Of a DNA stretch of 64,000 nucleotides, positions 1,571-56,567 are shown piece after piece. The DNA lies in the NCBI RefSeq assembly GCF_009908315.1, contig NZ_JAAATW010000005.1, positions 62,001-126,000 on the forward strand. Direction: 5' to 3'. The stretch is from Paragemmobacter ruber (lineage in GTDB: Bacteria > Pseudomonadota > Alphaproteobacteria > Rhodobacterales > Rhodobacteraceae). The notes beneath the pieces are model-generated. The model worked only from the letters and a program-made list of their open reading frames with translations, was not told the DNA's origin and ran no database searches. Position 1 is the first letter of the stretch; each line of letters starts with the position of its first letter. Position numbers and translations under genes: made by a program.

Positions 1571-1601
1571 GAGATACGGCTTCCCATTATGGTAAGGTCA
1601 A
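1571..1601 (-). promoter_or_regulatory. MerR/CueR-type promoter of copA
   Basis: Read leftwards, TTGACC (1601-1596) and TATCTC (1576-1571) are separated by exactly 19 bp. The spacer carries the dyad half-sites CCTTACC and GGGAAGCC. A stretched 19-bp spacer with a central dyad is the hallmark of MerR-family activated promoters. It drives the divergent copA. No cueR gene is visible, so the regulator is likely encoded beyond the left edge or elsewhere. Confidence 0.8.
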
Positions 1602-1638
1602 GGGGCAACCTGAGATTCGTCATCACGGCTTTGTGGGC

Positions 1639-1669
1639 TTGACCTTACAACCGTGGGAAGCCCTATCAG
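1639..1669 (+). promoter_or_regulatory. MerR/CueR-type promoter of the copZ-DUF305-copB group
   Basis: TTGACC (1639-1644) and TATCAG (1664-1669) are separated by 19 bp, with GACCTTAC and GTGGGAAGCC half-sites in the spacer. It closely matches the divergent copA promoter 40 bp away, so one Cu(I)-sensing MerR-family activator probably drives both directions. Confidence 0.8.
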
Positions 1670-2440: not shown

Positions 2441-4537
2441 ATGTCGGATGCACACCGGAACAAGCATCATCAGCATGGACATGGGATCGCAGCGGGCTCT
2501 GGGCCCGCCGACGTTCAGTCGGGCGCTTCGGCAGCCACTGATGAGAGACCTGCAACTGCACATGCAGGACACCATGCCGGGCATGGCGACATGGTCGCCG
2601 ACTATCAGCGCAGGTTCTGGGTCTCGCTGGTACTCACGATCCCTGTTCTGATCCTTTCGCCCATGGTGCGCGACTTTGCGGGGCAGGGGATGACGCCGCT
2701 GTTTACCGCCGAGGAGTGGGTCGCACTTGCCCTGTCCTCCATCATCTACTTCTGGGGCGGTTGGCCTTTCCTGACTGGCGCGCTTCCGGAGATCCGGACG
2801 GGGCGTCCTGGGATGATGACGCTGGTGGCACTGGCGATCTCGACCGCGTATTTCTATTCCGCCGCCGTCACGCTGGGCCTGCCGGGCGGTGAGCCGTTCT
2901 ATTGGGAACTGGCCACGCTGGTGACCATCATGCTGCTGGGTCACTGGCTGGAAATGCGGTCGGTTCTCGGTGCATCGCGGGCGCTGGAGGAACTGGTGCG
3001 CCTCCTGCCCGACACTGCGTTGCGGGTGAAGGCCGATGGCGGAACCGAGGAGGTGGCAGTGGCGGCGCTGATCGCCGGCGACCGGGTTGTGATCCGCCCG
3101 GGCGCGAAGGTGCCAGTCGATGGCGTGATCACCGACGGCGTCTCGTCGTTCAATGAGGCGATGCTGACGGGCGAGTCGAAGCCCGTGACGCGCACGGCCG
3201 GCGAGACCGTTATCGGCGGGGCGGTCAACGGCGAGGGCGCGGTCACCATCGAGGTCAAGGCAACTGGGGAGGCGACCTACCTTTCGCAGGTCATCGCCAT
3301 GGTAAAGGCCGCGCAGAACAGCCGGTCGCGCACCCAGGACCTTGCCACCCGCGCGGCCACAGTTCTGACCTGGGTCGCCATCACCGTCGGCCTGGGTTCG
3401 TTCGTCTGGTGGATCTGGGCGGGCGAAAGCGTCACCTTCGCACTGGAGCGGATGGTGACGGTGATGGTCATTGCCTGCCCCCACGCGCTTGGCCTTGCTG
3501 TGCCGCTGGTGGTGGCAGTCTCGACGTCGCTGGCGGCCAAAAACGGCCTCCTGATCCGCGACCGCGCAGCCTTTGAGCGGGCGCGCGACCTGAACGCTGT
3601 GGTGTTCGACAAGACAGGTACACTGACCGAGGGGCGGTTCGGGGTCAGCGATATCGTCATGCTCGACGGTGGCGCTGCAGCAGTGGCGCTGCGCATGGCA
3701 GCTTCGGTCGAAAGCCAGTCGCAGCACCCGATCGCGCAAGGCATCGTGGCCGATGCCAAGGCCAGGGGGATCGACTTCCCTGCCCCGGAGGGGCTGCAAA
3801 GCATTACTGGCGCGGGCGTCACCGCTCGGGTGGACGGAGAGGACGTGGCCATCGTCAGCCCCGGCCACCTGCGTCGGCAGAACACCCCTGTGACAGATCC
3901 GCGCCTTGCGGCACTGGAGGAGGCGGGCAAGACAGTTGTTGTCCTTGTGAGGGGCGGCAAGCCGCAAGCACTCTTCGCGTTGGCCGACATCGTGCGGTCG
4001 GAATCTCGCGATGTTGTGGCGCGCCTCAAAGCCAGGGGTGTGCAGTCGATCATGATGACGGGTGATGCGGAAGGCGTAGCCCGGTCGGTCGCAACCGAGC
4101 TGGGGCTGGACGAATACTTCGCTCAGGTCCTGCCCGATCAGAAGGCGGCCCGGGTCAAGGAATTGCGTGCCCGGGGACTGAAGGTTGCTATGGTCGGTGA
4201 CGGTGTCAACGACGCCCCGGCGCTGGTCGAGGCCGATCTTGGCATCGCCATCGGCGCGGGCACGGATGTGGCGGTAGAATCAGCCGATGTCGTACTCGTC
4301 CGCTCCGACCCGCGTGATGTCGAGGCCATTCTCGGCCTGTCGCGGGCCACCTACAACAAGATGGTGCAGAACCTGATCTGGGCCACAGGATACAATGCGT
4401 TTGCAATTCCGATGGCCGCGGGGATCACATTCGGCACAGGATTCCTGATGACGCCGGCCGTCGGGGCCGTGTTCATGTCGGCGTCCACCATAATCGTCGC
4501 CATCAACGCCCAGCTTTTGCGGCGCTATCGGGGCTGA
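2441..4537 (+). CDS. copB: Copper-translocating P1B-type ATPase with CPH motif (CopB-like)
   Basis: 698-residue inner-membrane heavy-metal ATPase. It has a cytoplasmic His-rich N-terminus (HRNKHHQHGHG) instead of HMA domains, the actuator TGES near residue 243, the intramembrane CPH motif (ACPHALGLAVP, near 346), DKTGTLTEG near 390 and GDGVNDAPALVEAD near 586, so it is complete. CPH in place of CPC marks the CopB-like P1B-3 class, reported to handle Cu(II) or Cu(I) at the membrane. The start has AAAGGAG eight bases upstream. It is third in the copZ-DUF305-copB unit and ends eight bases before the convergent membrane-protein gene. Confidence 0.95.
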   Translation: MSDAHRNKHHQHGHGIAAGSGPADVQSGASAATDERPATAHAGHHAGHGDMVADYQRRFWVSLVLTIPVLILSPMVRDFAGQGMTPLFTAEEWVALALSSIIYFWGGWPFLTGALPEIRTGRPGMMTLVALAISTAYFYSAAVTLGLPGGEPFYWELATLVTIMLLGHWLEMRSVLGASRALEELVRLLPDTALRVKADGGTEEVAVAALIAGDRVVIRPGAKVPVDGVITDGVSSFNEAMLTGESKPVTRTAGETVIGGAVNGEGAVTIEVKATGEATYLSQVIAMVKAAQNSRSRTQDLATRAATVLTWVAITVGLGSFVWWIWAGESVTFALERMVTVMVIACPHALGLAVPLVVAVSTSLAAKNGLLIRDRAAFERARDLNAVVFDKTGTLTEGRFGVSDIVMLDGGAAAVALRMAASVESQSQHPIAQGIVADAKARGIDFPAPEGLQSITGAGVTARVDGEDVAIVSPGHLRRQNTPVTDPRLAALEEAGKTVVVLVRGGKPQALFALADIVRSESRDVVARLKARGVQSIMMTGDAEGVARSVATELGLDEYFAQVLPDQKAARVKELRARGLKVAMVGDGVNDAPALVEADLGIAIGAGTDVAVESADVVLVRSDPRDVEAILGLSRATYNKMVQNLIWATGYNAFAIPMAAGITFGTGFLMTPAVGAVFMSASTIIVAINAQLLRRYRG

Positions 4538-5134: not shown

Positions 5135-5902
5135 TCAGCAAACTGGCGCTGCCTGGGCAGCCTCGTCTTCCACAATCCGGCGAAGGAGCGCGTAAGGGAT
5201 TGCGCCGTTCAGGACGGTCCGCCCGATTACAAGACCTGGCGTTCCGATGAAGCCAAAGACATCGGCGAGCGCTCGTGTTCGGTCCAGCTCTTCCTGCACC
5301 TCTGCAGAAGCCATGTCTTTGGCCAGCCGATCGACGTCGAGGCCGATATCCGCCGCCACCCTGAGGACGGAGGCTTCTTCGGCGACCAGAGGTGTTCGCA
5401 TGAATCGACGCCGAAGTTCTGGTTGTTTGCCTTGCTTCGCGGCAGCGACCGACGCCCGCGCGGCAAGCTCGGAAGCGGGCCCGAAGATCGGAAGTTCATG
5501 CTGAACCAGCCGGAAGGATGCAGGATAATCGGCCATCAGCGTGTCGAGGTCTCGCTCCAGTGCCCGGCAGTAGGGACAGCGGAACTCGCTGAAATAGGCA
5601 ATGGGAACGACCCCCTCAGAACCGCTGTTGCCAAAGAGGGCAGGGCAGGGGTCAGCACGTACCGCTTCGGCACGCGCGCGGCGCTGGTCTGCATCCTGAG
5701 GCGGCGCATCGAGTCCGACAAGGGCCAGCGGTGTTCCGGAGGTCTGGCCAACCCCGTCAAGTCGGCGAAACGGCGGCAGATCCGCAATGTCTGCAAAGCG
5801 CGGCCCGCGGCCCGGGAGCCGGTCCCAGGGAAGAGCCCGCAGACCATAGATCACGGCAACGATCCCTCCGAAGACCAGAAGGTCGCGGCGTCTCACGGTC
5901 AC
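5135..5902 (-). CDS. DsbA-family thioredoxin-fold protein, membrane-anchored
   Basis: About 255 residues from a GTG (5902) that overlaps the stop of the L,D-transpeptidase gene as GTGTGA; a GTG two codons later is also possible. An N-terminal hydrophobic anchor follows an RRR stretch. Then comes a thioredoxin-like domain with the redox motif FRCPYC near residue 150, and a cis-Pro element in IGTPGLVIG near the C-terminus. This layout fits a periplasmic DsbA/DsbG-like oxidoreductase. In this operon it may repair or form disulfides in exported proteins under copper stress, which causes non-native disulfides. Substrate is unknown. Confidence 0.8.
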   Translation of the reverse strand: MTVRRRDLLVFGGIVAVIYGLRALPWDRLPGRGPRFADIADLPPFRRLDGVGQTSGTPLALVGLDAPPQDADQRRARAEAVRADPCPALFGNSGSEGVVPIAYFSEFRCPYCRALERDLDTLMADYPASFRLVQHELPIFGPASELAARASVAAAKQGKQPELRRRFMRTPLVAEEASVLRVAADIGLDVDRLAKDMASAEVQEELDRTRALADVFGFIGTPGLVIGRTVLNGAIPYALLRRIVEDEAAQAAPVC

Positions 5903-6462
5903 ACCACGGTTACAGGTGTTCCGACCGGCACCTGCTCGTAGAGCTGGATCACATGGTCGTTCAACATCCGGATGCAACCGTTCGACACGGACTGGCCGAT
6001 GGACCACGGCTCGGTCGTACCATGGATTCGGTAGTAGGTATCGCGCCCTTCCCGGTAAAGGTAGAGTGCCCGCGCACCCAAGGGATTGTTTGGTCCCCCG
6101 GGCACGCCATCGGCGAATTGGGCGTAGCGGTCAGGATTGCGGCGGATCATGTCGTTCGTCGGGCGCCAGGACGGCCATTCGGCCTTGCGCTCGATGACTG
6201 CCGATCCCTTGAATGCGAGGCCTGCCTTGCCCACGCCAACGCCGTAACGGATTGCACGCTCGGAGTCGAAGACATGGTAAAGAAAGAAGCTTCGCGGAAA
6301 CACAAGGATCTGACCGGGTGCGTGCTGCTCGCGGACACGCACCTCACGCGGCTGGAACTCGTCGGCCAGCACGAACGGTTCTTGGGTATGGGCCCGCAGT
6401 ATGCCGGGCGAGGACAGCGCCGCGACTGCGACTCCGCCGATAAGGGTGCGTCGGGTAATCAT
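5899..6462 (-). CDS. L,D-transpeptidase (YkuD domain), Tat-type signal
   Basis: 187 residues. MITRRTLIGGVAVAAL is a Tat-like signal sequence. The YkuD domain carries the catalytic signature HGTTEPWSIG followed by SNGCIRM, with the nucleophilic Cys near residue 163. These periplasmic enzymes make 3-3 crosslinks in peptidoglycan or attach proteins to it. It is the second gene of a minus-strand unit (small secreted protein, this enzyme, Dsb-like protein, DUF457 protein). A second, separate L,D-transpeptidase starts about 520 bp away on the other strand. Position inside a copper island is unusual, because copper is reported to inhibit L,D-transpeptidases. Confidence 0.9.
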   Translation of the reverse strand: MITRRTLIGGVAVAALSSPGILRAHTQEPFVLADEFQPREVRVREQHAPGQILVFPRSFFLYHVFDSERAIRYGVGVGKAGLAFKGSAVIERKAEWPSWRPTNDMIRRNPDRYAQFADGVPGGPNNPLGARALYLYREGRDTYYRIHGTTEPWSIGQSVSNGCIRMLNDHVIQLYEQVPVGTPVTVV

Positions 6463-6498
6463 GCTTTCTCCTGAGGGGAACGGAAAGAAGAGGTTCGC

Positions 6499-6801: not shown

Positions 6802-6930
6802 GGATCGATATTAGCCTTTTGCACCTCGATAGCGGGTGATCACATGAGAGTGAGCAGCAGATTTCCCTGCATAATTGGCGAAAACGCAACGCATTCACCT
6901 GTTTGTGACCCGGCCGCGATGCAAAGCCGT

Positions 6931-6961
6931 TTGACCTTCCCACGTTGGAAGGAAGCAAGCC
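6931..6961 (+). promoter_or_regulatory. CueR-type operator/promoter ahead of the L,D-transpeptidase/cytochrome operon
   Basis: TTGACC (6931-6936) is followed by TTCCCACGTTGGAAGG, giving a dyad CCTTCC-N5-GGAAGG that matches the CueR consensus better than the copA and copZ promoters do. The -10 element is weak (around CAAGCC or AAGCCT at 6956-6962, 19-20 bp spacer). It lies 22-52 bp upstream of the L,D-transpeptidase start, so Cu(I) control of the whole downstream operon is likely but inferred. Confidence 0.7.
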
Positions 6962-6982
6962 TTGTTCAAAAAGGAGCAGAAC

Positions 6983-7543
6983 ATGCGATTCACTCGACGG
7001 CTTTTTGTTGCCGGAGCACTTGCCGCGCCTTTCGTGACCGGTCGCGCCGCCAGCGCGTCGGAAGACACGCCTGGCCCGGTCCGTAACAACATCTCGGCTT
7101 TTCGCACCCACGAGTGGCAGGATCACTTCGATGCTCTGGGCGTCGGGATCATCATCTCTGACACGACGGCCAAGGTCCTCCAGCACTGGACGAGCGACGG
7201 TCAAATGTACCTCTACCCGACCTCGGTCCCGCTGTCGGACGAGCTGACCCGCCGGGGCTATACCGAGGTCGTCGAGAAACGGGTGAACCCGAGTTGGGCC
7301 CCGACACCGTCGATGCGGGAAAGGAACCCGGAATGGCCGGCCTTCGTGCCTGGCGGCGACCCGACCAACCCGCTCGGCACCCGCGCCCTTTACCTGTCGT
7401 GGCAATACTACCGCATCCATGGTACACACGACACGCGCAAGATCGGTCGCCGCTCGTCGAACGGCTGCATCGGGCTCTACAACGAACATATCGAGGAAGT
7501 TTTCGACCGGACGCCGGTCGGGACGCAAGTGAAGCTGATCTAG
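6983..7543 (+). CDS. Second L,D-transpeptidase (YkuD domain), Tat-type signal
   Basis: 186 residues from the ATG at 6983, which has AGGAG six bases upstream; an in-frame earlier start at 6962 lacks this. The RFTRRLFVAGALAAPFV segment is a Tat-like signal. The catalytic part reads IHGTHDTRKIG and SSNGCIGLYNEHIEEVF, with the Cys nucleophile near residue 162. It acts in the periplasm on peptidoglycan. It is clearly related to the enzyme at 5899-6462 but is not a close copy. It follows a CueR-type box and is the first gene of a long operon with cytochromes, a PBP2 and thiol proteins. Confidence 0.9.
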   Translation: MRFTRRLFVAGALAAPFVTGRAASASEDTPGPVRNNISAFRTHEWQDHFDALGVGIIISDTTAKVLQHWTSDGQMYLYPTSVPLSDELTRRGYTEVVEKRVNPSWAPTPSMRERNPEWPAFVPGGDPTNPLGTRALYLSWQYYRIHGTHDTRKIGRRSSNGCIGLYNEHIEEVFDRTPVGTQVKLI

Positions 7544-7547
7544 CAAG

Positions 7548-7922
7548 ATGAAACCTTCGTCGACCTCACCGAACCCACTCAAGAACCTGTTTTCGCGCGG
7601 GTCGTTTCGGTTCGTGTCGATGTGGCTTCTGTCCGTGGTGCTGACGCTTGGCTTGGTCCTCGGACAGACCGCAGAGGCGGGCCCGGTCGAGGATCATCAT
7701 CCCGGCACGTCGGTCGAGATCGCGGGCAACGCCGGGCAAGAGACCGCGCCGGCACCTGCTTGCCACCCGGGCCTCGCCTGTTCTGTTTTCGTGCTGCCCG
7801 ATGGGCCGGTCACAGCACTGTCGTTGTCAATCGTGATCACTCTGCGACCGGACCTGACACAGTCGCAACGCCGCTTTGGCGGCCCGTCCGTCACCCTGCC
7901 TCCCCCCCGAACCCGGATCTGA
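7548..7922 (+). CDS. Small secreted Cys/His protein, CopL/DUF2946-like architecture
   Basis: 124 residues, starting four bases after the L,D-transpeptidase stop. A hydrophobic signal segment (MWLLSVVLTLGLVLG, near residues 25-39) is preceded by a basic N-terminus; a start at that internal Met is possible. Then follow a His motif (EDHHPG), two cysteines (CHPGLAC) and the Pro-rich end TLPPPRTRI. The end matches those of the genes at 6499-6801 and 16687-17040. Function unknown; a periplasmic copper-binding or regulatory role is inferred from layout and location. Confidence 0.6.
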   Translation: MKPSSTSPNPLKNLFSRGSFRFVSMWLLSVVLTLGLVLGQTAEAGPVEDHHPGTSVEIAGNAGQETAPAPACHPGLACSVFVLPDGPVTALSLSIVITLRPDLTQSQRRFGGPSVTLPPPRTRI

Positions 7923-8088
7923 CAGTCAGGCCGGACGTGCGTCTGACGGTTCGATAGGCTCTCCGCAGCTCTGTCGACAGTTCAATCTCTGTCAGCCTGA
8001 CACCAGACAGTTGTGCAAGCCGCACGATCCGCCGGAAGGGCGGGTCGCGGGATCGGTCAACAACAAGAAACCAAGGGCAGTCAGGCAG

Positions 8089-8733
8089 ATGAAACCACAA
8101 TGGACAGGCGCTTTGGCGCTTGCCGCTTCCGCAGTTGCGGCAGTGGCGCTGGCACATAACGGGGCGACGGGTGTCGTCCTGGAACGGATGAACGGTATGA
8201 CGGCGATGCGGGACACGGTGGCGGAGCTGGCGCCGATGATGCAAGGCACGATCCCCTACGACACATTTATCGTGTCGGAGGGTGCGAGCGTCATCGCTGG
8301 TCACGCGGGCGAGACGATGCTGTCGCTGTTCCCGGAAGGCAGCCTCGAAGGGGTGACCTACGCCAGGCCGGAGATCTGGTCCGACTGGCAGGACTTCGCA
8401 GCACTTGCCGAGGAATTGAAGACCTACGCTGACGCGCTCGCCGTGGCAGCCCCGAACGGTCTTGACCCGGCGCTGCCGCCGCCCGGAGATATGGCCGGGA
8501 TGGATCACTCGGCGATGGCCATGACCCCGGCACCACAGGTAGATGAGGGCTTCACGATAGCGGAGTTGATGGGCTACGGCGAAAGGACCCAAGAGGTCCA
8601 GGTTGCGCGTGGCACATCGAACCCGGCGACGCTGGCGTTCGATCTGACGACGCTGGCCGCTGACGACCTCTTCACCCGGATCAGCGCCACCTGTTCGTCC
8701 TGCCATTCGCAGTACCGCGCGGGCCGGAACTGA
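8089..8733 (+). CDS. Class II cytochrome c (cytochrome c-prime/c556-like)
   Basis: 214 residues. A signal peptide (ALALAASAVAAVALA) is followed by a helical region and, close to the C-terminus, CSSCHSQYR. The C-terminal CxxCHxxYR heme site is diagnostic of class II cytochromes c. A Met/His-rich insert (GDMAGMDHSAMAMTP, about residues 134-148) is unusual for the family and echoes copper-binding motifs in neighbours. The protein would be periplasmic. The start at 8089 is chosen because the signal peptide begins there; the open frame extends upstream to 7876 across the previous gene. It is followed after two bases by the diheme cytochrome gene. Confidence 0.85.
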   Translation: MKPQWTGALALAASAVAAVALAHNGATGVVLERMNGMTAMRDTVAELAPMMQGTIPYDTFIVSEGASVIAGHAGETMLSLFPEGSLEGVTYARPEIWSDWQDFAALAEELKTYADALAVAAPNGLDPALPPPGDMAGMDHSAMAMTPAPQVDEGFTIAELMGYGERTQEVQVARGTSNPATLAFDLTTLAADDLFTRISATCSSCHSQYRAGRN

Positions 8734-8735
8734 CC

Positions 8736-9719
8736 ATGCGGGGTCTGATCCGCGCTTCCGTCATTTTCCCGGCCGTGGCGGCGAGCCTCGGGGCCGGTGT
8801 TCTGGCGCTATGGCCCATCGGCGCGCCGGAGCCGGCCGCGTTCCCGCCCGGGGATGCAGAACGCGGCGCCTATCTGGCCCGTGCCAGCGGCTGTGTGTCC
8901 TGTCACACCAACGCGGCTGCCAAGGGACTGGCGCTCGCCGGAGGTGCGCCTCTCGACACGCCCTTTGGCACTTTCGTGCCCCCGAACATCACCCCGCACA
9001 CCACCGCCGGGATCGGTGCCTGGACCATCCAGGATTTCGCCAGGGCTGTTCGACAAGGCATCTCGCCGGAGGGCGACCCCTACTATCCGGTGTTCACATA
9101 TTCTTTCTATGCAGGCTTCACGGATCAGGAGATCGCCGACCTGTGGGAAGCATTCCGCACCGTTCCGCCGGTTGCGGATGCTGCCCCGGCGCATGATGTC
9201 GGGTTTCCGTTCAGCTTTCGCTCGGGGCTGAAGCTCTGGCGCGCTGCCTACCTCGACGCGCCGGAGACGGATGCGCTGATGGGCACATCATCGCCCTGGA
9301 ACCGCGGGCGTTTGCTCGTCGAAGGGGCGGCGCATTGTGCAGCCTGTCATACCGGCCGAACGCTTGCGGGCGGCCTGGACGCTTCCGCCCGGTTCGCCGG
9401 AAACGACAGCCTTCCCGGCGGCAGCAAGGCACCGTCGATCCTGACAGCCGACCTTCTGGAAGGCGGCTGGACGGTCGCGAACCTCGCCTATGCGCTCCAG
9501 TCGGGGCTGCTGCCCAATGGGGATGCTTTCGGCGGCAGCATGGCCGAGGTCGTGGCTGAGGGCACCTCGTACCTCACCGACGCCGACCGCGAGGCAATCG
9601 CGACCTACCTGCTCGACCCCGACGGCAGCGGGGACATCCCGGAACCCGCGCCTCCTGCCACGGAGACCCCGATGGCGGGGATGGACCACTCGCAAATGGA
9701 GATGGGCAATGAGAACTAG
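8736..9719 (+). CDS. Diheme c-type cytochrome, membrane-anchored
   Basis: 327 residues with an N-terminal hydrophobic segment and two class I heme sites, CVSCHT near residue 53 and CAACHT near 203. Each begins a cytochrome c domain of the kind seen in alcohol or gluconate dehydrogenase cytochrome subunits. The C-terminus carries MAGMDHSQMEMG, a copper-type Met/His motif. It probably moves electrons in the periplasm between the b-type membrane protein at 10615 and other partners of this operon. The actual donor and acceptor are unknown. The stop lies within the next gene (11-base overlap). Confidence 0.88.
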   Translation: MRGLIRASVIFPAVAASLGAGVLALWPIGAPEPAAFPPGDAERGAYLARASGCVSCHTNAAAKGLALAGGAPLDTPFGTFVPPNITPHTTAGIGAWTIQDFARAVRQGISPEGDPYYPVFTYSFYAGFTDQEIADLWEAFRTVPPVADAAPAHDVGFPFSFRSGLKLWRAAYLDAPETDALMGTSSPWNRGRLLVEGAAHCAACHTGRTLAGGLDASARFAGNDSLPGGSKAPSILTADLLEGGWTVANLAYALQSGLLPNGDAFGGSMAEVVAEGTSYLTDADREAIATYLLDPDGSGDIPEPAPPATETPMAGMDHSQMEMGNEN

Positions 9720-10137
9720 AGTGCTCGCAGTGGCGCTTGCTCTGTGCGTCTTTGCCCTTGTTGCCGCGTTCATCTGGGCAACGGTGCGCACACTCGATCC
9801 GCGAGACACCGTTGCGGATCAGAGCGTGCCGACAGCCGAAGTGTCGGAAGTCCTTCCGGATGGTCGGATCGACGTCCAGGTCTATGCGCTCGGAAACCGG
9901 GATGTCCGCCTCGAGATCCAGTTCACACCGGATGCCGATGCCATCGAATCTGCTGCCATGAGGCCGGACGTGAACTTCGCGATGTTGGAGATGCATATGG
10001 ACGGCTTTGATCCGCCGCTTCAGTTAGTCGAGGCCGGGGTCTGGCGAGCAAATCTCAAGTTGCCAATGGCTGGACGTTGGGTGGTCAGTGTTGGCTTTGG
10101 CGAGGATCGTGCAGAGGTTGAATTTGATGCACAGTGA
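9709..10137 (+). CDS. FixH/YtkA-like single-pass membrane protein
   Basis: 142 residues. An N-terminal transmembrane helix (VLAVALALCVFALVAAFIWA) is followed by a periplasmic beta-rich domain that ends LPMAGRWVVSVGFGEDRAEVEF, a pattern typical of FixH/YtkA-like Ig folds (a G-W-V-V strand near the end). FixH proteins support cbb3 oxidase and copper-site assembly. Here it lies between cytochrome genes, so a role in copper or heme protein assembly is plausible. The start overlaps the diheme cytochrome stop and its own stop overlaps the next start. Family call is moderate. Confidence 0.65.
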   Translation: MRTRVLAVALALCVFALVAAFIWATVRTLDPRDTVADQSVPTAEVSEVLPDGRIDVQVYALGNRDVRLEIQFTPDADAIESAAMRPDVNFAMLEMHMDGFDPPLQLVEAGVWRANLKLPMAGRWVVSVGFGEDRAEVEFDAQ

Positions 10138-10618
10138 CGGAGCGACACAACAGGCAAAGCAGGACGACACCCTGCGCAGGGGGCTTCGCGGCACCGCCGT
10201 CGGTGTCGCGCTGTTCGCCGTCCTCGGGACGGTGACCGCAGTGTGGGCGAACCCCCTCTTTGTCCGCATGACCCCGGTCGGCCCGTGGGAGTTCGGGGCC
10301 ACCGTCCTGACGGCACTCTTGGCTGGAGTGACAGTCGCGCTCTGGGTTCCCAGATGCAGACTGCGGACGTCCGGGGCAGGCGGTCTTGCGAGTTTCCTCG
10401 GCATCGCCTGTCCGACCTGCAACAAGGTCCTGATGCTGATCTTCGGTGGCCCGGCGCTGCTCTCCTGGTTCGATCCGGTCCGGCCCTGGCTCGCGGCAGC
10501 CGGGGTCATCGTCATGGGCTTTGCTGCCTTCCGCAACTGGCGGGCGTTTCGCGAGTCCCGATCTGACCTTCAGATTGTCGGCGGCGTTGAAGCTCCCTTG
10601 ACGGGAGGACCGCAGTGA
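10127..10618 (+). CDS. Integral membrane protein with CPTC motif, unknown function
   Basis: 163 residues from an ATG inside the previous gene (11-base overlap). About four hydrophobic segments are seen, around residues 23-43, 59-75, 84-108 and 115-132. Between the second and fourth lies GIACPTCNKVLML, a CxxC pair at the membrane face that could bind metal or cycle as a dithiol. The C-terminus is polar. I do not recognise the family. Neighbours (FixH-like protein, ferric-reductase-like protein, cytochromes) suggest a role in periplasmic redox or copper handling. Confidence 0.7.
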   Translation: MHSDGATQQAKQDDTLRRGLRGTAVGVALFAVLGTVTAVWANPLFVRMTPVGPWEFGATVLTALLAGVTVALWVPRCRLRTSGAGGLASFLGIACPTCNKVLMLIFGGPALLSWFDPVRPWLAAAGVIVMGFAAFRNWRAFRESRSDLQIVGGVEAPLTGGPQ

Positions 10619-11352
10619 CGGCGTCAACTGGTTTGCGGTCAGTGATGCGCGGGCTGGCCCGGAAGGCGCTGGTTCGGCACGTGCTTGTGGCTCTTCTTGC
10701 GGCGGGGCTTGTGCTGGGCTTTGCGGCGGTTCACGCGCAGTTCAACCCGATGCACCGCTGGAACCGCGCCTTCGGGGATGCCTCGCTGGTGCTGATCTCG
10801 CTGTCGATGGGGCTGGGGCCGCTGACACGTTTCCTGCGCGCGGCGGTAATGCTGCTGCCGTTCCGCCGCGAGATAGGTATCCAAGGCTGCCTCTTAGTCG
10901 TCGTCCACGCGGCGATCGTTCTCGTCGGCTGGGTCGAATGGGATCTGATGCGGCTGTTCGGGTTCGAATGGCATCCCGACCTCTTGGCCTATGTCATGTT
11001 CCAGCATGGTTTCGGGCTTGCCAACGCCATCGGGATCGCGGCCCTCGTCCTTGCGGTTCTGCTTGCCGCTACGTCGAGCGATTTCGCGATGCGGCGTCTG
11101 GGGCTGTCCGGCTGGAAGTTCCTGCAGATGGGCGTCCTGCCGATGTGGTGGCTGACCGTCGCCCACGTCGCCTACTTCCTCTTCATGCATTTCCTGAGCT
11201 TCCATCGGGCGACGCCACCGCCGAACCCGCTTCAGCCCTGGTTCGTCGGACTTGTGGTTCTGGTCCTTGGTCTGCGCGCTGCGGCCTACGTGAAGACCAT
11301 CCGCGCCAAGGCCCTGTCCGAACTGCCGGGAGAGGAGGCAAGCCATGCGTAG
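10615..11352 (+). CDS. Ferric-reductase-like transmembrane protein (YedZ/MsrQ-like b-type)
   Basis: 245 residues from a GTG that overlaps the upstream stop (GTGA). About six hydrophobic helices carry spaced histidines, including VVVHAAIVL, FQHGFGL, TVAHVAYFLFMHFLSFH, consistent with two heme b ligand pairs of the ferric reductase-like domain. MsrQ (YedZ), a family member, passes quinol electrons to a periplasmic methionine sulfoxide reductase. No MsrP gene is present here, so the acceptor may be the cytochromes of this operon. Membrane b-type electron transfer is likely; the specific partner is inference. Confidence 0.78.
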   Translation: MTASTGLRSVMRGLARKALVRHVLVALLAAGLVLGFAAVHAQFNPMHRWNRAFGDASLVLISLSMGLGPLTRFLRAAVMLLPFRREIGIQGCLLVVVHAAIVLVGWVEWDLMRLFGFEWHPDLLAYVMFQHGFGLANAIGIAALVLAVLLAATSSDFAMRRLGLSGWKFLQMGVLPMWWLTVAHVAYFLFMHFLSFHRATPPPNPLQPWFVGLVVLVLGLRAAAYVKTIRAKALSELPGEEASHA

Positions 11353-13297
11353 ATCGGAACGTGACCTCGTGCAGGCGGCGAAAAAGACAACCCGCCGGGC
11401 ACTGATCGTTGGTGGTGCGATGACGTCAGTGGTGGGCGTCCTTGGTGTCCGGATGTGGCAACTGAGCGTCCGTGATGCCGAGCAATACTACCTGCTGGCC
11501 GAAGAAAACCGGATCAGCCTGCGGCTGGTGCGACCGGACAGGGGGCGCATCCTTGATCGGGCTGGAAAAATCGTTGCGGACAATGAGCAGGCATATCGCA
11601 TCACGCTGGTGAAGGAAGAAGCCCGCGATGTCGACGACGTTCTGGAAAAGCTGCAGGTGCTGCTCGGCCTGGACGCAGAGACTGTCTCCAAGGTCAAGGA
11701 GCAGATCGACCGTGTTCGAGCCTTCGTGCCGGTAACGGTGAAAGACCGCGTCACGTGGGAAGAATTGTCGATCGTGGCACTGAACTCACCTGTCCTTCCC
11801 GGTGTGCAGCCCGAGATGGTCCTGTCGCGCGTCTATCCTTTCGGGCCGGATTTCGCGCATCAGGTCGGTTATGTCGGGCCAGTCAGCGACAGCGATCTGG
11901 AAAACGAAGCGGCTGACAATGAGCCGTTGCTCCGCCTGCCCGATTTTGAAGTCGGCAAGACAGGAGTTGAACGAAGCCACGAACGCACCTTGCGCGGCTT
12001 GCCAGGCAAGCGCCGCGTCGAGGTCAACGTGTCCGGCCGCACAATGCGCGAACTCGCTCTCGATCCGGCCACCCCGGGCCCGGACATGCAGATCACGCTC
12101 GACCACCACTTGCAGAACTTCATGCGCGTCCGGCTGGAAGGCCAAAGCGCGGCCGCGATCGTGATGGACGTGACGAACGGCGATTTGCTTGGCTGCACCT
12201 CTGCGCCCTCCTTCGATCCGAACCTCTTCGTCCGCGGGATTTCCAGCCGCGACTACGGCGCGCTCCGTGATAGTGAGTTCCGCCCGCTTGCCGACAAGAC
12301 GGTGCAGGGGGCCTATCCGCCAGGATCGACGATCAAGATGTCGAATGCATTGGCCGCGCTGGAAACCGGGCTGATGGACCCCGAAGAGACTGTCGCCTGC
12401 AATGGCTATGTAGAGATCTCCGGCCGAAGGTTCCACTGCTGGAAGCGCGGCGGTCATGGCCGGGTGAACATGGTCGGCGCCCTGCGAGAGTCCTGCGACG
12501 TCTATTTTTATGAGGTCGCTCAACGTATCGGCATCGATGGCATCTTCGCGATGAATGACCGGCTTGGACTGGGTCAGAAGTACGATCTGCCGCTGTCCGG
12601 AATGGCGCATGGCAACAACCCGTCCCGCGCTTGGAAGCAGGAACGTTACGCAGAGGACTGGCTGATCGGCGACACCATCAATGCCTCGATTGGCCAAGGC
12701 TTCACGCTCACCTCGCCGATCCAACTTGCAACCATGACTGCACGACTGGCATCGGGGACCGCCGTGCTTCCCCGGCTGGTGCGGCCGCTTGCCGGGCCGG
12801 ACCAGGTAATGGTTGCTCCCGCACCGCTTGGTCTCTCTGCCGAAGCACTGGCCATCGTGCAACAGGGCATGTTCGAGGTCTCAAACCATGAGCGCGGGAC
12901 GGCCTATTCCTCGCGGATCGCCGATCCGACATTGGCGATGGCCGGCAAGACGGGAACGAGCCAGGTCTTCTCGATCACCGCTGCCGAGCGGGCGGCAGGC
13001 GTCCGCTCGCAGGACGAGCTGCCGTGGAACCGGCGCGATCACGCGCTGTTCGTGGCCTTTGCACCCTTTGACGCGCCCCGCTTTGCTGTCACGGTCGTGG
13101 TGGAACACGGCGGCGGCGGGTCAACGGCAGCGGCGCCAATTGCGCGCGACATCATGCTGTTTGCGCAGCATGGCGGCCTGCCGCCTGAGGACGCCTATCC
13201 GACATCGCAGAGGGCGCGCATACGGGAGGACCTGGCCCTGCTGTCCGAACGCATCCTGCCGCCGGACGGCACGACCGCCACGGTGAGCCGGACATGA
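11345..13297 (+). CDS. mrdA: Penicillin-binding protein 2 (MrdA-like D,D-transpeptidase)
   Basis: 650 residues, the usual length of PBP2. An N-terminal membrane anchor (ALIVGGAMTSVVGVLGVRMW) is followed by the dimerisation domain (RGRILDRAG) and a transpeptidase domain with the three expected motifs: STIK near residue 328, SCD near 384 and KTGT near 534. PBP2 builds side-wall peptidoglycan for rod shape. The gene normally sits with rodA in the mre/rod cluster; here it lies between a b-type membrane protein and a cytochrome, overlapping both, so it is probably an extra accessory copy. It begins 8 bases inside the upstream gene and its last four bases overlap the next start. Confidence 0.93.
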   Translation: MRRSERDLVQAAKKTTRRALIVGGAMTSVVGVLGVRMWQLSVRDAEQYYLLAEENRISLRLVRPDRGRILDRAGKIVADNEQAYRITLVKEEARDVDDVLEKLQVLLGLDAETVSKVKEQIDRVRAFVPVTVKDRVTWEELSIVALNSPVLPGVQPEMVLSRVYPFGPDFAHQVGYVGPVSDSDLENEAADNEPLLRLPDFEVGKTGVERSHERTLRGLPGKRRVEVNVSGRTMRELALDPATPGPDMQITLDHHLQNFMRVRLEGQSAAAIVMDVTNGDLLGCTSAPSFDPNLFVRGISSRDYGALRDSEFRPLADKTVQGAYPPGSTIKMSNALAALETGLMDPEETVACNGYVEISGRRFHCWKRGGHGRVNMVGALRESCDVYFYEVAQRIGIDGIFAMNDRLGLGQKYDLPLSGMAHGNNPSRAWKQERYAEDWLIGDTINASIGQGFTLTSPIQLATMTARLASGTAVLPRLVRPLAGPDQVMVAPAPLGLSAEALAIVQQGMFEVSNHERGTAYSSRIADPTLAMAGKTGTSQVFSITAAERAAGVRSQDELPWNRRDHALFVAFAPFDAPRFAVTVVVEHGGGGSTAAAPIARDIMLFAQHGGLPPEDAYPTSQRARIREDLALLSERILPPDGTTATVSRT

Positions 13298-13770
13298 TGC
13301 ACCGTCTCAGAAGAGCATTGTGCCGAAGCGTTCCTGGGGCTGTCATGGCCGCAGTCACCCTCGTTCTTCCGTTGGTTCCAGCCCAAGCGTTCTTTTACGA
13401 CACGCCGGACATCGAAGACGGGCGAGTCATTTACGCGGCCAAGTGCGCCTCCTGTCACGGTGCCAACTTGGAAGGGCAGCCGGACTGGCAGTCGGCGAAG
13501 GAGGATGGCACCTATCCCGCGCCGCCCCACGACGAGACCGGCCACACCTGGCACCACGGGGATGCGATGTTGCGGGACTACATCCGTCGCGGCGGACAAG
13601 CGGTGCTGGACGATATGGGGGTCGACTTCACCTCCGGCATGCCCGGGTTTGGCGGTGAGCTGACCGAGGACGACATCGAGGCCGTCCTCGCTTATATCCG
13701 GTCGACCTGGCCCGACCGCATTCGTGCCGCACAGGCTGAACGCAGCCAGATGGAAGCAGGTTCGCCTTGA
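13294..13770 (+). CDS. Class I cytochrome c, single heme, secreted
   Basis: 158 residues with an N-terminal signal peptide (ending near LVPAQA) and one heme site, CASCHG, near residue 54. This is followed by a His-rich segment (PPHDETGHTWHHGDAM) and a C-terminal SGMPGFGGELTEDDIEAVLAYIRSTWP block holding the Met axial ligand and the last helix of a class I cytochrome. It is a periplasmic electron carrier. It starts inside the PBP2 stop region (ATGATG overlapping TGA) and is part of the same operon. Partner unknown. Confidence 0.88.
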   Translation: MMHRLRRALCRSVPGAVMAAVTLVLPLVPAQAFFYDTPDIEDGRVIYAAKCASCHGANLEGQPDWQSAKEDGTYPAPPHDETGHTWHHGDAMLRDYIRRGGQAVLDDMGVDFTSGMPGFGGELTEDDIEAVLAYIRSTWPDRIRAAQAERSQMEAGSP

Positions 13771-13880
13771 AGCCGCAAGTAAGGCCACCGACCTCCCAAT
13801 TCCCGCTTGCCTCTCCAGGGACTAGAGGGTGCAGACCGCCTGAAACTCAAAATCTTCATCCGTCACACAAGGCTCTTCCC

Positions 13881-14606
13881 ATGCGCGTCACGTCAATCCT
13901 GTTTGCTATCACGCTCGTTTTCGCTCCCGGCCTCACCCTGGCGCAGGAGATTACGGAAGATCGGATCAAGGAACTGGTCGCCGAAACCTTGCGCGAGAAC
14001 CCGGAGCTTGTGCTCGAGGCTCTCCAGACGCTGGAGGCGCGCCAGGCAGAGGCCCAAGCTGCCGCCGTTGCCGCGACCCTGGCCGACGAGCGCGCCCTGC
14101 TGGAGCGCGACCCCAACGCTCCGGTCCTCGGCAACCCGGAAGGCGACGTGACGGTGGTGGAGTTCTTCGATTACAACTGTCCCTATTGCAAACGCGCGAT
14201 GCCTGAAATCGACGCCCTGCTGGCCGAGGACGGAAACATCCGTCTTGTTCTGAGAGAATGGCCAATCCTCAGCGAAGGATCAGCGATCGCGGCGCGGGCC
14301 GCTTTGGCTGCACGGAAGCAGAACAAGTATGCTGAACTGCACAATGCGCTGATGGGTGCGCGGGCGAAGTTGGACGAGCAGTCGGTGCTGCGGATCGCGG
14401 GCGAGGTCGGACTCGATGTCGAGCAGCTCAAGGTCGACATGCAATCGCCCGAAGTCGAGGAACATATCGCCACGTCGCTACGTCTGGCCGAGGCTCTCGG
14501 CTTCAACGGCACACCGTCATTCGTGGTGGGTGATCAACTGATTCCGGGCTTTGTCGAGAAGGCTCAGCTTGCCGAGGTGGTAGCCGCCGCGCGGGCCGCC
14601 GAATGA
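13881..14606 (+). CDS. DsbA-family disulfide oxidoreductase, secreted
   Basis: 241 residues from the ATG where the signal peptide (RVTSILFAITLVFAPGLTLAQ) begins; the frame is open further up to 13767 but that stretch does not look coding. A helical N-terminal segment (about residues 25-75) precedes a thioredoxin-like domain with FFDYNCPYCKRAMPE near residue 96 and the cis-Pro motif FNGTPSFVVGD near 212. It resembles the BdbD/ScsC-type DsbA proteins with an N-terminal oligomerisation helix; ScsC proteins confer copper tolerance. It overlaps the next gene by four bases (ATGA). Confidence 0.88.
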   Translation: MRVTSILFAITLVFAPGLTLAQEITEDRIKELVAETLRENPELVLEALQTLEARQAEAQAAAVAATLADERALLERDPNAPVLGNPEGDVTVVEFFDYNCPYCKRAMPEIDALLAEDGNIRLVLREWPILSEGSAIAARAALAARKQNKYAELHNALMGARAKLDEQSVLRIAGEVGLDVEQLKVDMQSPEVEEHIATSLRLAEALGFNGTPSFVVGDQLIPGFVEKAQLAEVVAAARAAE

Positions 14607-15259
14607 GTATCCGTCTTACGCGTCTTCTCGGTTTCCGACTTCAGCGGCCTTTCACGATCACTGAGACGGTCTTGGGCCGGATCAGGCATTCCGTCGTGGC
14701 AGCCACTTTGTGGATCGCCTTGACAGGGATTGCTTCGGCGCATTCATTCACCGTCGGCCTTCTGGTCGTCGGCGAGGACGTTGACGCAAGTCTGGCAGAA
14801 GCGGTGCGCGGTTTCCTCCTAGCGGCCGACGAACGGGACGGGCACGCCAACGAAACATCGGACGGACATCTCGGTGGGGTTGATGTGCAACTGCTGCCGC
14901 TGCCACGAGATGCGGCGGGGCTGGTCGAAGGACTGTTCGGTACGCCCGACGAGCCGACCGATGTCGTCATTGTCATTGGCGCCGAACCCGCGGCCAGCGA
15001 CGCCGCGCGCGCGTATGCCTCGGCAAGCACGGTCTTGCGGCAGTTCGTACTGCCGGATGGGTGGGACAGCGCAGACGGAACCGACGGTTTTGTGTCGCGT
15101 TACCGGCTCGCCTATGGCGCAGCGCCCGGCGTAATGGCGGGGACGGCCTATCATTCGGCTCGCAGGCTCGACGCCGCAGTCAGACCGTTGGACGGTGTGG
15201 TACCCAAGGAAGCACTGCTAAACGCCTGGAGGTCAAACGAATCCGGTCTGTCCTGGTGA
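14603..15259 (+). CDS. Secreted protein with periplasmic-binding-like half domain, unknown function
   Basis: 218 residues. A signal segment (VVAATLWIALTGIASAHS) is followed by an alpha/beta region (FTVGLLVVGEDVDASLAEAVRGF, later TDVVIVIGAEPAASDAAR) that recalls the N-terminal lobe and start of the second lobe of branched-chain amino-acid-type binding proteins, but it is far shorter than the usual 350-400 residues. It may be a reduced binding domain. Last gene of the coupled operon, overlapping the DsbA-like stop, and followed by a hairpin. I do not recognise a named family. Confidence 0.6.
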   Translation: MSIRLTRLLGFRLQRPFTITETVLGRIRHSVVAATLWIALTGIASAHSFTVGLLVVGEDVDASLAEAVRGFLLAADERDGHANETSDGHLGGVDVQLLPLPRDAAGLVEGLFGTPDEPTDVVIVIGAEPAASDAARAYASASTVLRQFVLPDGWDSADGTDGFVSRYRLAYGAAPGVMAGTAYHSARRLDAAVRPLDGVVPKEALLNAWRSNESGLSW

Positions 15260-15264
15260 CCCGG

Positions 15265-15293
15265 GAACCAATGGCGCAAGGCGTCATTGGTTC
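15265..15293. terminator. Hairpin between convergent genes, probable terminator
   Basis: GAACCAATG (15265-15273) and its exact complement CATTGGTTC (15285-15293) form a 9-bp stem around an 11-base loop. It lies six bases after the stop of the upstream + strand operon and 29 bases before the stop of the convergent DUF411 gene. No T-run is present, so it may act as a bidirectional but weak terminator or mRNA end-stabiliser. Confidence 0.6.
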
Positions 15294-15321
15294 TGGGCAG
15301 TCCTTGCACGACTGAACGGGA

Positions 15322-15789: not shown

Positions 15790-15887
15790 GATGTCGGCCT
15801 TTCGTTGGAACTTTACGGGAAACATAGCTGCAAGTGCGGGGATCGGCGAGCAAAGTCTGATGAACCCGGCGACAGATCACCGAAATG

Positions 15888-17106: not shown

Positions 17107-18582
17107 ATGTCGCCCTTTTCTCGCCGCGGCTTTCTGGCCGCTTCTGCGGCCACGGCCGCTTCACTGATGCTTCCCGCACGGGTCCGGGCCCAGTCCGGCC
17201 GAATGTCGCTGACCGCCGCCACCCGCACCATTGACGTGCGGGGCAGAGCCGCAACCGTCTGGGGGCTTCTGGACGGCGCTGGCCGGTCCGGCCTTGTCCT
17301 CGATCCGGACCAGGCGTTCGCGGTCGATTTGACAAACGCGCTGGCCGAGCCAACGATTATTCACTGGCATGGTCAGATCCCCGACAACGCGCAGGATGGA
17401 GTGCCCGACCTGCCGATGCCGATGCTGCAACCCGGTGAATCCCGCGCCTACGATTTCGCGGCACGGCCCGGAACACACTGGATGCACGCCCATATCCCCG
17501 AGCATGAAATGATGCTGCTGGCCGCGCCTCTGGTGGTGCGGCGAGCTGAGGATGTGGCGGCAGACCGGAAGGAAGTGACGCTGTTCCTGCACGACTTTTC
17601 CTTCAAGCCACCTGCCGAGGTGCTGGCCGAGATCACCGGCGGCGCTTCGATGGCCGGGATGGATCATGGCCAGATGGGGCAGGGCGGCATGGACCATTCC
17701 GGAATGGACATGGGTGGCATGGGTCAGGGGGACATGATGGCGATGCCGGGGATGGATGGCATGGCGATGGACCTGAACGACTACAACTTCGACGCCTATC
17801 TCGCCAATGATCGCACGCTGGACGACCCCGAAGTGGTTCCGATCGACAAGGGCGGCCGCGTTCTCGTCCGCGTCATCAACGCTGCGGCCGCCACCGTGTT
17901 TTGGATCGACACTGGCGCGCTGCCGGGACGGCTGGTCGCCGTCGATGGCGAGCCGGTGCAGCCCGTGCCCGGCAGCCGCTTTGGCGTCGCAATGGGCCAG
18001 CGGCTGGATATCGAACTGGATGTGCCGGGCGAGGGCGGGGCCTTCCCGATCCTTGCCCTGCGCGAAGGTGCCAAGGAAAGGACGGGTGTCATCCTTGCCA
18101 CGCCGGGCGCGGCGGTGACCAGGATCGCCGAGATGTCGGAGGCCGACCATCCGGCCTTCAGCGGTGATCTGGCGCAGGAGGGTGCTCTGCGCGCCGTCAC
18201 CCCGCTGCCCGAACGCGCGCCAGCCTCGCAGCCGATGCTGATGCTGGGCGGCACCATGATGCCCTATGTCTGGACGATCAACGGCCAGACTTGGGGGTCC
18301 CATGTGCCGGTGACTGCGAAATCCGGCGACCGAGTCGAGATCATGTTCCACAACATGTCGATGATGGCGCATCCGATGCACCTGCACGGCCACGCCTTCC
18401 AGGTAGTGGGTGTCGGCATGGACCGGATCGCAGGCGCGGTCCGCGACACCGTGCATGTGCCGCCGATGGGCATGGTGACGGTCGCGGTGGACGCGGGCGA
18501 GGCGGCGCGGTGGATGCTGCATTGCCACCACATGCCGCACCTTTCGACCGGCATGATGACCGAGTTCGCGGTGTCGGCCTGA
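17107..18582 (+). CDS. Multicopper oxidase, Tat-exported (CueO/CopA oxidase type)
   Basis: 491 residues. It starts with a Tat signal (SRRGFLAASAATAASLMLPA). Three cupredoxin domains carry all the copper ligand motifs: HWHGQ near residue 86, HWMHAHIPEHE near 124, HPMHLHGHAF near 422 and HCHHMPHLSTGM near 472, which holds the type 1 copper Cys-His-Met set. A Met/His-rich insert (about residues 181-225, repeated MDH, GMG, MDM) resembles the methionine-rich copper-binding region of CueO and PcoA. It probably oxidises periplasmic Cu(I) to the less toxic Cu(II). The ribosome site is AGGAGA. TlpA-like protein follows. Confidence 0.95.
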   Translation: MSPFSRRGFLAASAATAASLMLPARVRAQSGRMSLTAATRTIDVRGRAATVWGLLDGAGRSGLVLDPDQAFAVDLTNALAEPTIIHWHGQIPDNAQDGVPDLPMPMLQPGESRAYDFAARPGTHWMHAHIPEHEMMLLAAPLVVRRAEDVAADRKEVTLFLHDFSFKPPAEVLAEITGGASMAGMDHGQMGQGGMDHSGMDMGGMGQGDMMAMPGMDGMAMDLNDYNFDAYLANDRTLDDPEVVPIDKGGRVLVRVINAAAATVFWIDTGALPGRLVAVDGEPVQPVPGSRFGVAMGQRLDIELDVPGEGGAFPILALREGAKERTGVILATPGAAVTRIAEMSEADHPAFSGDLAQEGALRAVTPLPERAPASQPMLMLGGTMMPYVWTINGQTWGSHVPVTAKSGDRVEIMFHNMSMMAHPMHLHGHAFQVVGVGMDRIAGAVRDTVHVPPMGMVTVAVDAGEAARWMLHCHHMPHLSTGMMTEFAVSA

Positions 18583-19257: not shown

Positions 19258-19992
19258 ATGTTGCAACAGCTGGGGACCACTCAAGCCACGGAAGGCCGAG
19301 TTCTTGTCGTAGATGACGATGGTGAAATCCTTTCGCTGGTTGCCAAGTTCCTGCGCGCCAACGGGTTTGTCGTCGCGACGGCCCGCAACGGTGCCGAGAT
19401 GAAGGCGCAGATGCAGGCCGCGCAACCCGACCTCGTGGTGCTCGACATCATGCTGCCGGGAACCAACGGGCTGGATCTGTGCCGGTCGCTGCGGGCGGAA
19501 AGTCAGGTGCCGGTGGTCATGCTGACCGCCAAGGGCGACGAGATCGACCGCATCGTGGGTCTGGAGGTCGGGGCCGACGACTACCTGCCCAAACCCTTCA
19601 ACCCGCGCGAGTTGCTGGCACGGATCAAGGCGGTCCTGCGCCGCAGCCGGTTCGCCGACAGCGCCGGCGCGCCGGGATCAGGTCGGCTGATCGAGTTCGA
19701 TGGCTGGCATCTGGACACGTTGAAGCGCGAACTGACCGACCCCACAGGCGTCGTCGTGGACCTGTCGAGTGGCGAATACGACCTGCTGGTGACGTTTCTT
19801 GAAGCCCCCCAGCGGGTCCTCTCTCGCGACTATCTGTTGGACGCGACCAAGAACCGCACGCTCGATGTCTACGACCGATCCATCGATGTGCAGGTCAGCC
19901 GCCTGCGCCGCAAGATCGAGGCGCAGGGTGAATTGATCAAGACAATCCGCGGCGCGGGGTACCTGTTCGCTGCGTCGGTACGTCGCAAGTGA
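19258..19992 (+). CDS. OmpR/PhoB-family response regulator
   Basis: 244 residues. The receiver domain has the acidic pair VVDDDG near residue 17, the phospho-acceptor Asp in LVVLDIMLPG near 62, Thr in VMLTAKGDE and Lys in LPKPFNPRE near 112. A winged-helix output domain follows, ending IKTIRGAGYLFAASV. It binds DNA and regulates transcription. It overlaps the sensor kinase gene by four bases (GTGA). Its location between the oxidase/TlpA genes and the RND efflux genes suggests a CopR/CusR-type role, but no binding site was identified. A start at 19258 with GGAAGG-like upstream bases is used. Confidence 0.93.
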   Translation: MLQQLGTTQATEGRVLVVDDDGEILSLVAKFLRANGFVVATARNGAEMKAQMQAAQPDLVVLDIMLPGTNGLDLCRSLRAESQVPVVMLTAKGDEIDRIVGLEVGADDYLPKPFNPRELLARIKAVLRRSRFADSAGAPGSGRLIEFDGWHLDTLKRELTDPTGVVVDLSSGEYDLLVTFLEAPQRVLSRDYLLDATKNRTLDVYDRSIDVQVSRLRRKIEAQGELIKTIRGAGYLFAASVRRK

Positions 19993-21347: not shown

Positions 21348-21430
21348 AACACTTTGTTACAGAGCGGAAATCATTGGGAGATGCGGGTCCCGCACTTGGA
21401 CATCAAAGCAACGAGACGTCGAGGTGGGAT

Positions 21431-23110: not shown

Positions 23111-23119
23111 GCAGCGCGC

Positions 23120-26100: not shown

Positions 26101-26269
26101 CATCTTCGGCGGCCTGGTCACTGCGACTCTGCTCGACACCGTGCTGACGCCCACCCTGTTCCTGCGCTATGGCCGCGCCCCGCTGGAGCGTCTGGTGGCG
26201 CAGGCGCGGGCTGAGGCCGCCAGACAGTCGGACACCACGGGGCGCGCGCCCACCCTTGAAGCCTTCTGA
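23120..26269 (+). CDS. cusA: CusA-like RND heavy-metal efflux permease
   Basis: 1049 residues, the normal length of the HME-RND family. Twelve membrane helices in two blocks of six are visible, with the long periplasmic loops after helices 1 and 7. The fourth helix carries [22 protein letters not shown], the acidic proton-relay region of heavy-metal RND pumps. The N-terminus reads [18 protein letters not shown]. It would export copper or silver from the periplasm or membrane to the outside with its adaptor, encoded nine bases upstream. Metal specificity (Cu/Ag rather than Co/Zn/Cd) is inferred from the island. Confidence 0.93.
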
Positions 26270-32433: not shown

Positions 32434-32494
32434 GGCTGTCGCTTTCTTAAATCGAGCGCTTCTTGCGTAGTTTCTTTCGTACGATGTCCCCGGT

Positions 32495-56565: not shown

Positions 56566-56567
56566 GG

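Follow-up and report, generated by a model that had tools for sequence, protein, structure and literature searches.

Why should an island of copper genes carry enzymes of cell wall synthesis, and why in one operon with cytochromes? The question is raised by Paragemmobacter ruber, whose 139,998-base contig NZ_JAAATW010000005.1 (C5) was analyzed over a window of 64,000 nucleotides (contig positions 62001-126000; coordinates below are those of the window unless prefixed C5). Coordinates of open reading frames (ORFs) together with Pfam and NCBIfam profile searches place 11 ORFs between 6983 and 15259, all on the plus strand, as an earlier reading of the letters alone (the original prediction) had proposed. 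They make up a real and conserved operon, in which the strongest new fact is a lineage of penicillin-binding protein 2 (PBP2) dedicated to copper islands, and we consider it somewhat probable that the operon, induced by copper, provides a spare set of periplasmic enzymes vulnerable to that metal, coupled to a redox module of cytochromes and membrane proteins.

The first gene encodes an L,D-transpeptidase (Ldt1, 6983..7543; YkuD PF03734, 78.6 bits) with the catalytic motif SNGC, followed by a small secreted Cys/His protein of no family (7548..7922), a class II cytochrome c' with one CxxCH (8089..8733; PF01322, 75.3 bits), a diheme cytochrome c in which two CxxCH motifs were seen by eye (8736..9719; Cytochrom_C, 36.9 bits), and a YtkA/FixH-like protein whose N-terminal membrane segment was likewise judged by eye (9709..10137; YtkA 25.2 and FixH 20.3 bits, both slightly below cut-off). 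Next come the CPTC membrane protein, which has no family (10127..10618), a ferric-reductase-like membrane protein (FerR, 10615..11352; Ferric_reduct 29.7 bits, cut-off 28), the PBP2 paralogue (11345..13297; TIGR03423 674.4 bits, cut-off 455), a class I cytochrome c (13294..13770; 50.2 bits), a DsbA/ScsC-like thiol protein (13881..14606), and a short binding-type protein of no family, distantly LivJ-like (14603..15259). Six of the ten junctions overlap (diheme cytochrome/FixH and FixH/CPTC by 11 bases each, the latter counted with the CPTC start at ATG 10127; CPTC/FerR by 4, FerR/PBP2 by 8, PBP2/cytochrome c by 4 and DsbA/last gene by 4), in agreement with the claim that most neighbors overlap by 4-11 bases; the fixed stoichiometry that had been drawn from these overlaps does not follow from them and is unsupported. 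Two junctions are small spacers of 2 and 4 bases, and two are real gaps, of 166 bases ahead of cytochrome c' (ATG 8089) and of 110 bases ahead of the DsbA gene (ATG 13881). An alternative DsbA start at TTG 13767 would turn the latter into a 4-base overlap; the annotation of Neotabrizicola shimadae has the identical 110-base gap ahead of its DsbA gene. Scans of 6400-15900 for sigma-70 promoters and terminators gave counts no higher than in shuffles.

The spread of the operon was surveyed with the family-less CPTC protein as marker, using the best 80 of 94 named stretches. All 11 genes stand on one strand and in the same order in 31 of these 80 loci, which amount to only 29 genomes because three copies share one contig of Pseudogemmobacter bohemicus. 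The same 11 genes occur on plasmids of N. shimadae (92.8% across the entire stretch), Gemmobacter fulvus and Tabrizicola piscis, some of them unannotated and located by tblastn. A full-length PBP2 is present in 47 of the 80 loci, and 45 of these 47 have a multicopper oxidase, copper-ATPase or DUF411 match, the other two being contigs of 8.0 and 3.8 kb; the diheme cytochrome is likewise found in 45 of the 47, and the small Cys/His protein has a match in 39 of the 80. The proposal of one conserved operon inside a copper island, combining wall enzymes with redox proteins, is thus borne out, and the neighborhood survey, set beforehand as the refuting test, found that the gene order is not unique to this element.

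Ratios of nonsynonymous to synonymous substitution (dN/dS) lie between 0.04 and 0.34 across the operon genes in every comparison with a finite ratio. The small Cys/His protein stands at 0.28-0.34, and Ldt1 (0.038-0.108) and PBP2 (0.048-0.074, four comparisons) rank with the most constrained genes. Against loci L005, L071 and L119 dS is high or saturated, and L040 is the safest comparison (PBP2 0.074, Ldt1 0.108). Such ratios, together with the 11-gene order in 31 loci, indicate that the arrangement is not due to chance, and with the synteny they rule out neutral cargo. In an even sample of 394 family genomes, strong homologues of CPTC occur in 7 (two more at E 1.6e-4 and 6.5e-4) and of FerR in 25, the P. 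ruber genome included in both counts; the system is thus real, though not common. The three P. bohemicus copies (L121, L122, L123) are whole operons lying on one 321 kb contig of strain Cd-10.

The operon's PBP2 is encoded on C5 and the host PBP2 on contig C2, where it adjoins RodA. Like other members of MrdA/PBP2 (TIGR03423), the island protein is full length and has the SxxK, SCD and KTG motifs and the CCHC zinc motif; unlike an ordinary MrdA/PBP2 it is an additional copy on a copper island, shares 58% identity with the host enzyme and falls in a separate clade. These motifs are intact in 47/47 full-length island copies, CCHC with SCD also being present in 13/13 chromosomal PBP2 rows, and the island protein looks catalytically active. 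In the tree, island PBP2s fall on one side of a branch with support 100/99 (7 vs. 13 rows); the branch has an SH-aLRT of 100 in a larger tree (23 vs. 13 rows), and with class-level outgroups 14 island rows form a clade on the Rhodobacteraceae side. Judged by this placement and by its substitution ratios, the island PBP2 is a dedicated paralogue lineage apart from the host PBP2 and under strong purifying selection. Two PBP2 matches at E ≤ 1e-60 were found in 8 of 149 family genomes, and a full second PBP2 could be placed, with the window protein at E ≤ 1e-40, in five of the 149 (G000, G006, G010, G034 and G121, P. ruber included), in every case no more than 4 kb from a multicopper oxidase. Among these, G006 has diverged, having cytochrome c', diheme cytochrome, CPTC and PBP2 but not a FerR gene, and the double match of G022 is a single PBP2 gene in two pieces. 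RodA was never doubled above cut-off: its 145 rows come from 145 different genomes.

Is the operon under copper control? A CueR/copA-type operator, TTGACCTTCC-N6-GGAAGG, lies on the plus strand at 6931..6952, 30 bases ahead of the operon's first ATG, and is the single match to this strict pattern in the window. It closely resembles the E. coli copA operator of CueR; the known consensus was used together with control promoters, the same kind of box being found at the copper-ATPase/copZ promoters of L006, L068, L069, L070, L155 and L161. Of the loci with Ldt1 and PBP2 matches, 40 extend far enough upstream to be testable, and in 35 of these the strict box occurs within 250 bases ahead of Ldt1. 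The 80 loci together hold 57 boxes, compared with 0.04 expected with uniform bases, an excess inflated by near-identical loci. The genome has its own cueR at C5:60602-61045, just left of the window, whose product is 73-78% to T. piscis CueR. Copper induction is predicted from the presence of both box and regulator, and the operon is probably copper-induced through CueR. Two divergent, degenerate CueR-like sites in the copper ATPase/copZ gap (1579..1661) have three mismatches each and do not match the strict pattern. Two TCAC-N6-GTGA palindromes (6840-6853 and 6895-6908), the only two in the window, could be a second operator and also occur in L004, L005, L071, L119 and L128, although their count alone is not significant (at least two in 23 of 100 shuffles).

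The window also contains conjugation genes (type IV secretion system), and the copper island, which lies on a putatively mobile plasmid or integrative element, duplicates a host envelope enzyme through its spare PBP2. Resistance is known to arise by way of additional PBPs, and conjugation genes on the island's contig would suit co-selected beta-lactam tolerance, with the extra PBP2 as a drug-insensitive target and the copper linkage as hitch-hiking. This PBP2 is, however, part of an operon that has a CueR-type box, and 5/5 placed second copies adjoin a copper oxidase at the distance given above, which makes such an origin very improbable. No resistance gene was found among 50 window proteins scanned against Pfam, no resistance library having been searched, and this too counts against it.

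In the reading we favor, that of an inducible spare set, a rise in Cu(I) would lead CueR to turn the operon on, and freshly made island PBP2 would replace host PBP2 in the elongasome, working with the single chromosomal RodA. A likely point of Cu(I) attack in the host enzyme, and the reason why it would fail, is its zinc motif, made up of three cysteines and a single histidine and shared by the island enzyme. The extra L,D-transpeptidase would compensate for enzyme whose catalytic cysteine is inhibited by copper, the DsbA/ScsC-like protein would deal with copper-damaged thiols, and the cytochromes and nearby multicopper oxidase might share in Cu(I) oxidation or electron disposal. Copper is reported to inhibit L,D-transpeptidases and lipoprotein acylation and to make DsbC needed (PMC6593411; PMC6538781), and Acinetobacter baumannii PBP2 is reported to require zinc bound by D, D, H, and C (PMC9974482). 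Since CCHC is kept in the island PBP2, the gain is more likely to be one of dosage, timing, folding or metal loading than of site loss. A narrower proposal, which we put forward only tentatively, is that the copper plasmids of Rhodobacterales encode an elongasome subunit specific to stress: a PBP2 lineage, split off from host PBP2 and induced through CueR, that swaps into the RodA complex as host PBP2 loses its zinc.

Several observations weigh against the spare-set reading. Hardening of the island PBP2 by loss of metal-binding residues was considered and rejected, as CCHC is kept and Cys/Met/His counts overlap those of the host; hardening of Ldt1 via SNGC fared no better, SNGC and SSGC being present as well in chromosomal L,D-transpeptidases among 30 Ldt loci of five genomes. 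The literature consulted gives no report that copper inhibits PBP2. Some second PBP2s, moreover, have no known link to copper: TIGR03423 gives G052 and G117 a second, weaker match (with the window protein at E ≤ 1e-40 each has a single match), G407, from the class sample outside the family, has two adjacent PBP2s (G407:C1:2506147-2509733), and most of a PBP2-like match is found in 207 plasmid records, just three of them at least 80% identical. Within the survey, PBP2 is truncated in three of 50 loci and was not found in 30 of 80, where some contigs end too early, and it is therefore not essential to the wider module; L134, one of the 31 complete loci, has an in-frame stop in its last gene. Five of the 40 testable loci have no strict box in the 250 bases: L140, L151, L155 and L165 lack it, and the fifth, L100, has one just outside, before the first piece of a split match. 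CcmF, lnt and lgt are not in the 11-gene operon, nor is any lipoprotein-maturation enzyme, the only one being an lspA elsewhere on the contig (C5:10658-11116). Finally, the survey was seeded on an operon gene, includes near-identical loci, overlaps the family sample, and may contain misbinned metagenome-assembled genomes, some of its records being of this kind and labeled Verrucomicrobiaceae, Porticoccus or Cyclobacteriaceae.

What, then, do the membrane proteins do? CPTC has an invariant C77 and C95-P-x-C98-N, and its only family match is a weak one to MerTP (20.2 bits, cut-off 180). FerR, in which H47, H98, H184 and Q171 are invariant, co-occurs with CPTC in 56 of the 80 CPTC loci, adjacent in either order (FerR first in, e.g., L163, L164, L170, L175, and L178), and because they are neighbors in both orders the two look like a membrane pair. 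In one alternative, built on the original prediction, the b-type membrane protein would draw electrons from quinol and hand them through the cytochromes, three in number, to a thiol or copper target in the periplasm, so that the crosslinking enzymes stay reduced. The pairing, the invariant vicinal cysteines of CPTC, and a DsbA-like gene directly ahead of CPTC in L169 and L173 would all fit such a path. Against it, Q171 (13/13 aligned sequences) occupies the place where a WKxLH histidine would be expected from the wider ferric-reductase family, and FerR scores 18.4 against an MsrQ cut-off of 130. FerR is missing from 8 of 47 full-PBP2 operons, where PBP2 directly follows CPTC, so that the PBP2 part need not depend on it; Dinoroseobacter shibae and Phaeobacter pair the same cytochromes with a multicopper oxidase instead, and PBP2 catalyzes by serine, not thiol. 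We regard the electron path as unlikely and so far unproven; of the proposed module for wall and redox upkeep under copper, the wall-plus-redox frame stands.

The AlphaFold model of CPTC (pLDDT 72.6, pTM 0.56) has no PDB match at E ≤ 0.001, and its PDB sequence matches are noise (E 0.5 or worse); FerR has no PDB sequence match. FerR relatives in L053, L055, L058, L060 and L061 share a neighborhood in which no copper gene was seen. Presumably this is the ribosomal protein locus rplM/rpsI.

On either side of the operon the island continues. A copper P-type ATPase (2441..4537, plus strand) has a homologue annotated 'copper-translocating P-type ATPase' in L004, and a divergent partner operon on the minus strand includes a second L,D-transpeptidase (5899..6462; 72.6 bits, with a match in 40 of 80 CPTC loci), a second DsbA-like gene (5135..6007 as called, the true start being perhaps later; 62.5 bits), and a membrane protein. 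Downstream lie DUF411, a CopA-type multicopper oxidase (17107..18582, plus strand; match in 39/47 full-PBP2 loci) and a TlpA-like protein, then a CopRS/Cus-like group at 19258..26269 on the plus strand that comprises a two-component pair (response regulator and histidine kinase) and an RND pump with its adaptor.

Among the closest known counterparts of this arrangement are Roseobacter plasmid operons (D. shibae pDSHI01 and Phaeobacter pP66_b), which share the backbone Ldt-cytc-cytc'-diheme-MCO-cytc-DsbA and have a multicopper oxidase (MCO) in place of FixH-CPTC-FerR-PBP2. A copper ATPase is close by, with cueR and a two-component pair in pDSHI01, and these operons (L068, L253) adjoin CcmFGHI and DsbD, which together amount to a spare set for maturing cytochrome c. 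An L,D-transpeptidase also lies at most 3 kb upstream on the same strand in 38 of 50 diheme records listed (644 matched), many of them strains of one species. That cytochromes c flank the multicopper oxidase in these sister operons, and that the P. ruber island has two L,D-transpeptidases, would be in keeping with a copper-handling accessory, in which cytochromes, CPTC and FerR oxidize or bind Cu(I) and the wall enzymes, instead of standing in for poisoned ones, reinforce the sacculus or its outer-membrane link. By profile and motifs, however, PBP2 is an ordinary elongation transpeptidase, a sign that a core activity is being replaced, and we find the accessory role quite unlikely. The DsbA/ScsC-like protein resembles ScsC in having both ScsC_N (35.9 bits) and DSBA (95.9 bits) above cut-off and differs from it in having no ScsB/DsbD partner in the operon: none of the 11 proteins is DsbD-like, and D. 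shibae DsbD had no match at 1e-6 on the contig stretches searched.

A spare enzyme of envelope maturation on a mobile copper element has a precedent. A Gram-positive copper-resistance element (Armbruster et al., 2019, as outlined in PMC8689077) carries lit2 and a second lgt; it resembles the P. ruber island in being mobile and in setting a second envelope-maturation enzyme beside an efflux pump, metallochaperone and oxidase, and it differs in that lipoprotein maturation is doubled there, whereas peptidoglycan crosslinking (PBP2, Ldt) is doubled here, in one operon with cytochromes. Other copper islands have other spare envelope genes (lnt/lspA; CcmFGHI with DsbD; lgt with lipoteichoic acid synthase), as has the P. 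ruber contig itself outside the window, with lspA, DsbB and M23. Two or more lspA matches occur in 18 of 149 family genomes, often on a contig shared with a multicopper oxidase match; few are close to it, and extra lspA genes are for that reason not used as proof. On the Gram-positive Cytobacillus firmus copper plasmid NZ_CP085391 (L009/L254), the one with lgt and lipoteichoic acid synthase, a distant FerR homologue is flanked by a MurE-like ligase and a C39 peptidase. The literature searched, which is thin on subscription journals, gave no account of a PBP2 duplicated in a copper island, so that absence in print is unproven.

On the narrower, tentative proposal, PBP2 would be an unrecognised copper target, and the duplicated genes of copper islands (PBP2, Ldt, Ccm, LspA, Lnt, Lgt) would map where copper strikes in the periplasm. 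Should the spare-set reading be right, copper would kill partly by halting elongation-type wall synthesis, and copper's envelope targets could be read off from what copper islands encode. It would also be a case of a mobile element that, under metal stress, exchanges a central component of a machine essential to its host, and copper would be linked to a beta-lactam target.

The protein of the last gene, whose coordinates are also given as 14741-15259, has weak LivJ-like profile matches (best E 0.0012), an invariant histidine at its predicted mature N-terminus, and the motif DERDGHxxETSDGHLGG. The histidine and motif could form a copper site, making this a possible new copper-binding protein. 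Its model (pLDDT 68) has no PDB match at E ≤ 0.001, and as both this model and that of CPTC are middling and without PDB match, no fold is claimed for either. Homologues occur in L045, L046, L048, L049, L050, L052 and L059, often near a copper ATPase and FerR. The small secreted Cys/His protein of the operon (7548-7922, plus strand) has two counterparts nearby (6499-6801, minus; 16687-17040, plus), all with proline-rich PPPR/PPPG-like tails and no Pfam family.

To the left of the window, C5:8165-17491 is a second copper block, with a copper ATPase, methyltransferase, lspA, DsbB, thioredoxin-like protein, MntR, Nramp, two SCO, PCuAC, M23 peptidase and DUF411; manganese uptake inside a copper island is of interest. 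Elsewhere in the window, 29353-40183 is a restriction-type block (endonuclease/ResIII protein, AlbA_2 protein, N6/N4 DNA methylase, SNF2-like helicase). A pair of UvrD helicase and OLD-like nuclease at 54661-58550, which we take to be Gabija-like, and an ABC-3C three-component system at 58647-62331 both lie beside the conjugation genes.

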